From the NCBI GenBank assembly GCA_016874975.1, contig VGSQ01000004.1, forward strand, positions 1 to 61,641: a DNA stretch of 61,641 nucleotides, written 5' to 3'. The notes beneath the pieces were generated by a model, which was not told the origin of the DNA, made no database searches, and was given only the letters and a program-made list of their open reading frames with translations. The DNA is from Deltaproteobacteria bacterium (GTDB lineage: Bacteria > Desulfobacterota > Desulfobaccia > Desulfobaccales > 0-14-0-80-60-11). The translations under genes were made by a program, and so were the position numbers. Shown piece by piece: positions 31,217 through 53,690 of the stretch. Position 1 is the first letter of the stretch, and every line of letters starts with the position of its first letter.

Positions 31217-31369
31217 GATGGAATCGTAAAAAGTAAAAAAGGCCGTACTATCTCCAAAAGGTGGCTCTCGCTGCCATTGATAACTGATTGATTTGCCTCA
31301 TTAACCCCCTCTCCCCCCGGAGGGGGGAGAGGGAGAATGATCGGGGTTTTTTCCCTCTCCCCCGATGGG
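31217..31369. mobile_element. MITE-B, second copy (left part, interrupted)
   Basis: Opposite orientation to 10699-10851. It starts GATGGAATCGTAAAAAGT and matches the first copy at roughly 90% over about 87 bp (for example TGGCTCTCGCTG and TTGATAACTGATTGAT). CCCTCTCCCC palindrome modules follow. MITE-A is inserted in that module; its continuation GGAGAGGGTCAGGGTGAGGG resumes at 31591. The distal terminal repeat is missing. Confidence 0.7.
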
Positions 31370-31579
31370 CATTGGCGCTAACTTAAGAAAAAACCAGTTT
31401 ACATCATAACATACCGATTTTACTTAAAATCCCCCTAAATCCCCCTTTCCCAAAGGGGGACTTCGGGTCACCGACTGCTCATTCCCCCCTTTGGCAAAGG
31501 GGGGTAAGGTGTGATTTATCTTGACTGTTCAACAGGTTACCCTTGTCATACCCGCTGCTTGCTTAAGTTAGCGCCAATG
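31370..31579. mobile_element. MITE-A, copy 1 (210 bp)
   Basis: Perfect 18-bp terminal inverted repeats: CATTGGCGCTAACTTAAG at the left and CTTAAGTTAGCGCCAATG at the right. The 11-bp direct repeat CCCCCGATGGG flanks both sides. The reverse complement of 53248-53457 matches with about seven substitutions and no gaps. The interior contains CCCCCTTTCCCAAAGGGGG and CCCCCCTTTGGCAAAGGGG hairpins and no coding frame. Confidence 0.88.
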
Positions 31580-31649
31580 CCCCCGATGGGGGAGAGGGTC
31601 AGGGTGAGGGGGAATTAATTTTCATCTGCGGTTATTTCAATGCATGAAT

Positions 31650-31826
31650 TCAAAAGCTTATGAGATAATGTGCCAAATCCACAGAAAGACACCCCTCAAC
31701 GGCCTCGTATAGATTTTTGAGCAATTCCTCGAGGGTTTCCCCCTGGGTGGCGCAGCCCGGAATAGCCGGCACCCCGGCCCAGTAGCCCCCTTCCTCGGCC
31801 TCATGGATGACGACTTTGATCTTCAT
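31650..31826 (-). CDS. hicB: HicB-family antitoxin (orphan)
   Basis: Too short for the ORF track: 58 aa, starting MKIKVVIHEAEEGGYWAGVP and continuing AIPGCATQGETLEELLKNLY then EAVEGCL. The pattern (strand, E-E-G-G-Y-W-A, P-x-x-P-G-C-x-T-x-G-x-T-x-E-E, helix) is that of the HicB RNase-H-like antitoxin fold. There is no DNA-binding C-terminal domain, as in short HicB forms. Downstream on the same strand, where hicA should be, lie nested MITEs and a hicA-like stub. It is probably a leftover antitoxin, possibly able to neutralise a HicA elsewhere. Confidence 0.78.
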   Translation of the reverse strand: MKIKVVIHEAEEGGYWAGVPAIPGCATQGETLEELLKNLYEAVEGCLSVDLAHYLISF

Positions 31827-53066: not shown

Positions 53067-53247
53067 GCGTTCAACTCCGATGTCGTTGTGGTGGGGGTAG
53101 GGACGGGGGAGCGGCGGCCCCTGTGGCACGGGCATCCTGCCCGTGATTATCTCCTCCCACGCCCCCCTCCCAACCAGGCCTGTCCGGTAAGGATTTTGCA
53201 CGAAGGCGGTTTTTATGCCCCCTCCCCACGGTGGGAGGGGGTTGGGG

Positions 53248-53457
53248 CATTGGCGCTAACTTAAGCAAGCAGTGGGTATGCCAAGGGTAACCTGTTGAAC
53301 AGTCAAGATAAATCCCCCCTTACCCCCCTTTGCCAAAGGGGAGAATGAGCAGTCGGTGACCCGAAGTCCCCCTTTGGAAAAGGGGGATTTATGGGGATTT
53401 TAAGTAAAATCGGTATGTTATGATGTAAACTGGTTTTTTCTTAAGTTAGCGCCAATG
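53248..53457. mobile_element. MITE-A, copy 2 (210 bp)
   Basis: Same perfect 18-bp ends as copy 1 (CATTGGCGCTAACTTAAG ... CTTAAGTTAGCGCCAATG), opposite internal orientation, same length. The 11-bp direct repeat GGGGGTTGGGG flanks both sides. Seven or so substitutions separate the two copies, mostly in the C/G-rich hairpins. Confidence 0.88.
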
Positions 53458-53557
53458 GGGGGTTGGGGGGAGGGGGGCGAATGAGACAAGTCATCGTCAT
53501 TACAGATAATTTCGCCACCCCCTCCCCAGCCCTCCCCCATCAAGGGGGACCGAGTCT

Positions 53558-53690
53558 GAGATGAAGGCTCTTCCCTGTCCGGAGGCCTTTTTGATATGCG
53601 CCTCCTTTTATCTTAAGGCCGAAACATCAAGGCTGGAAGGCAATATCCTGGTCAGAGATGCCTTGTAAGCAAAAATCGTGCCGGACAGCC
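53558..53690. repeat. Repeat D, copy 2
   Basis: Same orientation as 11618-11745, with GATGC as a 5-bp insertion before CTTGTAAGCAAAAA. A further GTGCCGGACA follows at about 53726. Confidence 0.7.

Follow-up and report, generated by a model that had tools for sequence, protein, structure and literature searches.

MITE-A, a 210-bp element present in two copies in the DNA analyzed here, is in our assessment a non-autonomous IS4-family DNA transposon that bears IS186/IS421-type ends and would be moved in trans, a reading to which we assign a probability of a little over nine in ten. The DNA (hereafter the window, 61,641 nucleotides) comprises positions 1 to 61,641 of contig VGSQ01000004.1 in the assembly of a Deltaproteobacteria bacterium (GCA_016874975.1; 3.34 Mb, 217 contigs). 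In a single uncultured bacterium, a clean MITE family that was amplified recently thus occurs alongside an IS that is its probable partner, and a sharp target rule directs MITE-A into intergenic GC-rich palindromes. Collectively, these observations serve as a worked example of the low-damage spread of such elements and of their capture of host repeats.

Two MITE-A Copies in the Window

An initial annotation of the window had described two 210-bp copies in opposite orientation, each with perfect 18-bp inverted ends and each flanked by its own 11-bp direct repeat. Lengths, coordinates, and orientations are all as claimed, the inverted ends are perfect on both copies, and the direct repeats are exact (Table 1). 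The estimate of about seven differences between the copies proved to be exactly seven positions, in an alignment that is gap-free inside the element. The 18-mer end occurs four times in the window, exclusively at MITE-A ends even when 3 mismatches are allowed, and was absent from 100 shuffles. MITE-A is devoid of genes; its interior comprises a captured repeat and short arms. A small frame that adjoins copy 1 (31653-31826, minus strand) matches HicB-like antitoxin / UPF0150 (PF15919, PF21748).

Table 1. Coordinates of the two MITE-A copies and associated features in the window.
Feature	Position	Strand	Remarks
MITE-A copy 1	31370..31579	+	210 bp, 5 changes vs family consensus
Copy 1, left terminal inverted repeat CATTGGCGCTAACTTAAG	31370..31387	+	
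Copy 1, right terminal inverted repeat	31562..31579	-	
Copy 1, left 11-bp target duplication CCCCCGATGGG	31359..31369	.	
Copy 1, right 11-bp target duplication CCCCCGATGGG	31580..31590	.	
Copy 1, core: captured dispersed repeat (family-wide) containing two CCCCCTTT..AAAGGGGG palindromes	31426..31517	+	element positions about 57-148
MITE-A copy 2	53248..53457	-	210 bp, 2 changes vs family consensus
Copy 2, terminal inverted repeat, element's left end	53440..53457	-	
Copy 2, terminal inverted repeat, element's right end	53248..53265	+	
Copy 2, left 11-bp target duplication GGGGGTTGGGG	53237..53247	.	
Copy 2, right 11-bp target duplication GGGGGTTGGGG	53458..53468	.	
Host dispersed repeat (~194 bp), split by copy 2	53174..53588	.	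uninterrupted paralogs elsewhere in genome

A Recently Amplified Family in the Source Genome

The genome-wide search that the initial annotation had recommended returned 45 BLAST matches in the source assembly, 18 of which are full-length, uninterrupted, and 95-100% identical to copy 1. Many of the other matches are cut by contig ends, three are broken up by insertion of a second element, and one is extended by another. With split matches merged and weak ones left out, the genome contains about 36 MITE-A places, a count in which a single copy may sometimes be entered as two contig-edge pieces. The 18 full-length copies each carry 0 to 6 changes from the consensus, mostly private, with a mean pairwise difference of 5.2 per 210 positions, and one copy (L002) is identical to the family consensus. 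The predominance of private mutations, together with a copy that equals the consensus, forms a star-like pattern that suggests a recent burst. These family data support the proposal in the initial annotation that the copies moved recently by a transposase acting in trans; transposition itself is a reading from sequence. Degenerate relatives of MITE-A that share the same plan at 72-78% identity were identified in two genomes from other genera (G002 and G004) and in the source genome; the family is therefore old.

Target Duplications, Empty Sites, and Target Rule

Target duplications were tallied for the 21 copies in the source genome that retain both ends (the 18 full-length copies and three with inserts). 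An exact 11-bp duplication flanks 14 of these copies, one has an exact 12-bp duplication, one has a duplication with a single mismatch, and five have no clear duplication. Since the flanks are of low complexity, mismatched flank pairs were used as a control, and these agreed exactly in 5.6% of cases. Exact duplications fit the rule (CCC/GGG)N5(CCC/GGG), i.e., CCC or GGG at each edge, in 13 of 14 cases vs 0.65% of window 11-mers, and the flank logo is identical for the CATTGG ends of the MITE and the CATAAG ends of the IS described below. Insertion sites fall within long open frames in 9 of 21 cases as compared to 81% of random positions in the same stretches, a comparison that is a rough test because GC-rich DNA is full of spurious frames.

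Comparison of empty sites, also proposed in the initial annotation, was conducted on paralogous repeats within the source genome and yielded an empty site for the copy at 53248. When joined, the flanks of this copy match a host repeat of ~194 bp that is unbroken at about a dozen other places in the genome (81-90% identity). Four empty paralogs were aligned at the junction; two of them (L227 and L230) have exactly one GGGGGTTGGGG each, and the other two have a variant that is one base shorter. Empty-site paralogs of the copy at 31370 are weaker, comprising related GC-rich repeats with 79-84% identity across the junction, not aligned base by base.

Captured Core Repeat and Nested Insertions

Element positions 57-148 correspond to a dispersed repeat that many genomes inside and outside the family carry; its limits (AAATCCCCC...GGGGGGATTT) are sharp, and the sequences flanking it are unrelated. 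MITE-A thus comprises a pair of IS-type ends around a captured host repeat. A broader reading, in which IS4-family transposition scatters the family-wide CCCCCTTT/AAAGGGGG intergenic repeats by amplifying captured ones into further GC-rich repeats and thereby builds nested layers in intergenic safe sites, is in our view improbable, and counting against it is the observation that most CCCCCTTT/AAAGGGGG repeats in relatives lack surrounding IS ends.

Three composites of MITE-A and a second miniature element were identified in the source genome (L052, C5:25189-25565; L053, C48:17066-17442; L054, C68:17974-18332). The nested element is about 156 bp, is inserted at MITE-A positions 63-73 with a 10-11-bp duplication, and has ends (CAATGCTGTTCACTTAAG / CAATACTGTTCACTTTGG) that fit the IS4-subgroup signature -AATR. 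A longer element at the same MITE-A position (L220, C36:26000-27245) has a CAATACTGTTCACTT end, as in the nested miniature element, and a transposase-like frame; either this site is an insertion hotspot or the longer element is the parent of the nested one. Elsewhere, one MITE-A copy (L068 positions 331-660, C27) carries a further repeat of ~120 bp (TCCTACTACG...CGCAGTAGC) inserted into its right inverted repeat. In an IS copy (L201, C124:8361-8872), a GC-rich intergenic repeat has inserted (TGTTCATCCGGAAA... at one edge), suggesting that this host repeat is itself mobile.

Candidate Partner IS

An IS with ends matching those of MITE-A had been put forward in the initial annotation as the thing to look for, and the search was successful in part: an IS with nearly matching ends is present in the source genome, with ends (CATAAGCGCTAACTTAAG, CATAAG type) that differ from those of MITE-A (CATTGG type) at 2 of 18 positions (4 and 5). 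In the source genome, CATTGG is at both ends of all full-length MITE-A copies and CATAAG is at all IS edges, of which eight are left-type and seven right-type. Nearly all of these edges reach a contig end after 75-127 bases, such that the IS was not assembled through; this is the usual mark of a multi-copy IS left unresolved by the assembler. The left edge leads into MKKLIFPRHADDWQFLLTF (transposase start), and the longer right edge on C124 reaches a C-terminus that matches an IS profile (E = 9.7e-9); on these broken copies, only the protein termini are readable.

When named genomes were scanned for ends of the type CATVNGCGCTAACTTAAG, four intact ISs were identified. Two of these, L084 (1327 bp) and L086 (1376 bp; Rhizobium rhizogenes NBRC 13257), have exact 11-bp duplications. 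The remaining two have slightly imperfect ends, with a 10-bp duplication around L136 (1344 bp) and no duplication seen around L156 (1339 bp). Proteins encoded by all four match PF01609 and the IS4-family model NF033592, and they carry the DDE transposase motif Y(2)R(3)E(6)K as YRxRWQIELxFKRxK. Overall, intact ISs of the MITE-A end type are 1327-1380 bp with 10-11-bp duplications, fitting the approximately one helix turn of the IS4 family. When the L086 protein was compared with plasmids, IS421-type transposases of E. coli were recovered at about 45% identity, and one copy of the E. coli IS421 element spans 1339 bp, carries CATAAGCGCTAACTTAAG at each end, and is flanked by a 10-bp duplication.

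No intact CATTGG-ended IS was detected in the source genome, 22 family genomes, or 395 sampled genomes of the phylum, and a PF01609 search of the source genome identified other IS4-like fragments, none with the MITE-A/IS end type. A second family of miniature elements, also of this IS type, is smaller at 104-105 bp (L051, L055-L060); in most members a CATAAG-like end is paired with a CATTGG end, and 11-bp duplications flank several of them. Their mixed ends suggest that one transposase may act on both CATAAG and CATTGG ends.

Proposed Mechanism and Alternative Explanations

We infer that the CATAAG IS of the source genome probably supplies the transposase for MITE-A. A full-length IS in the same cell would make a DDE transposase, which would recognize the 18-bp inverted ends and cut out the 210-bp element. 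Insertion would then proceed by an 11-bp staggered cut at 11-mers that preferably begin and end with a run of C or G, and suitable targets are plentiful in the genome's CCCTCC..GGAGGG intergenic repeats. The chemistry is presumably the cut-and-paste of the IS4 family. In a variant of this explanation, MITE-A would owe its movement to another IS4-family element, one that has CATTGG ends and escaped assembly, and the CATAAG IS would be only a cousin of that element. The strict partition of the two end types between full-length MITE-A copies and IS edges favors this variant; however, the CATTGG-ended IS that it calls for is missing from the source genome, family, and phylum sample, the mixed-end 104-bp elements exist, and target logos are the same for both end types. 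We regard a separate CATTGG-ended mover as rather unlikely.

Movement of MITE-A in trans was also weighed against explanations that dispense with transposition as the main process. Several copies, among them that at 53248 and the three composites of 377 bp, lie in related repeats and have the flank GGGGGTTGGGG in common, and the two flanks of a few copies do not match, the outcome expected from recombination among copies; both observations favor spread mainly through duplication or gene conversion of the surrounding host repeats. However, other copies differ in their flanks and have 11-bp duplications of their own (AGCCGAAACCC, CCCATCAAGGG, CCCCCTAGCCC, etc.), and the host repeat has about a dozen long paralogs that lack the element. 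This variety of sites, each accompanied by a separate duplication, indicates that copying of host repeats can cover only a minority of copies, making it very improbable as the main route. Slightly less probable again is an immobile intergenic repeat, or a structured RNA or terminator family under selection, around which the direct repeats would be chance products of low complexity. The very strong RNA fold of the element (z = -8.4) and its GC-rich repeat surroundings are consistent with such a role, yet much of the fold consists of the inverted ends and captured palindromes, the duplications are of one length and far above the mismatched-flank control, and empty paralogous sites exist. An Rfam search with MITE-A returned no match, which likewise counts against a structured RNA.

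Copies in Other Genomes

Near-identical MITE-A copies were also identified in two genomes, G008 and G013, from another genus, where the orthologue of a 3-kb window gene is 74-75% identical. Horizontal transfer between genera was considered and rejected as unproven after the flanks of the G008 copies were checked. These copies are on contigs that are 100% identical to contigs C85, C115, and C47 of the source assembly over >1 kb, coding sequence included; the G008 contigs C13 and C73 (L222, L032, and L075) are those that match C115, C85, and C47. Identity of this kind indicates that DNA of the same organism was placed in another MAG bin, and there is thus a binning error in one of the two MAGs (G008 or the source genome) that supposedly represent different genera. 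The flank of the MITE-A copy in G013 was not found in the source assembly, and the flank of an IS edge in G013 is 89-95% identical to repeats of the source genome; mis-binning is also possible for the G013 copy.

Comparison With Known Elements

On sequence comparison, the nearest named element found for MITE-A is IS421/IS186. The 18-bp end of E. coli IS186/IS421 (CATAAGCGCTAACTTAAG) is identical to the IS edges of the source genome and matches MITE-A at 16 of 18 positions, and G/C runs are favored at both target edges, as in MITE-A. In contrast to the 1339 bp of the IS421 copy, MITE-A is 210 bp without a gene, and the commonest MITE-A target, CCC..GGG, is opposite in polarity to the target preference reported for IS186, GGGG(N6/N7)CCCC (PMC6925257).

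The initial annotation had further noted that CAT ends and 10-12-bp duplications recall the IS4/IS231 group. This likeness holds, in that the ends and duplications match the published signature and are shared with intact IS4-family ISs and IS421. Specifically, the IS231 subgroup is characterized by ends of CAT-------AA--TAA and duplications of 10-12 bp (PMC2266710 Table 1); CATTGGCGCTAACTTAAG matches this signature at every fixed position, and the MITE-A duplication is 11 bp. However, IS231 is given as 1450-5400 bp, and the intact ISs of the present end type (1327-1380 bp) are below this range. In its ends and duplication length, MITE-A agrees with the IS231 subgroup as tabulated for the IS4 family. 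The IS4Sa subgroup (CA------T, duplications of 8-10 bp) was excluded, since position 9 of MITE-A is C and its duplication is 11 bp.

Non-autonomous derivatives that are moved in trans are known from the IS231 group, including mobile insertion cassettes; these cassettes carry passenger genes, whereas MITE-A carries none. A literature search identified no paper on MITEs with IS186-type ends within the limited set searched. MITE-A is an already known kind of element with a textbook mechanism, and the family described here is a further member. Like other bacterial MITEs, it is short and non-coding, with inverted ends, target duplications, and many near-identical copies. A point of difference is the core of MITE-A, which is a dispersed palindromic repeat of the host and not a remnant of the IS interior.
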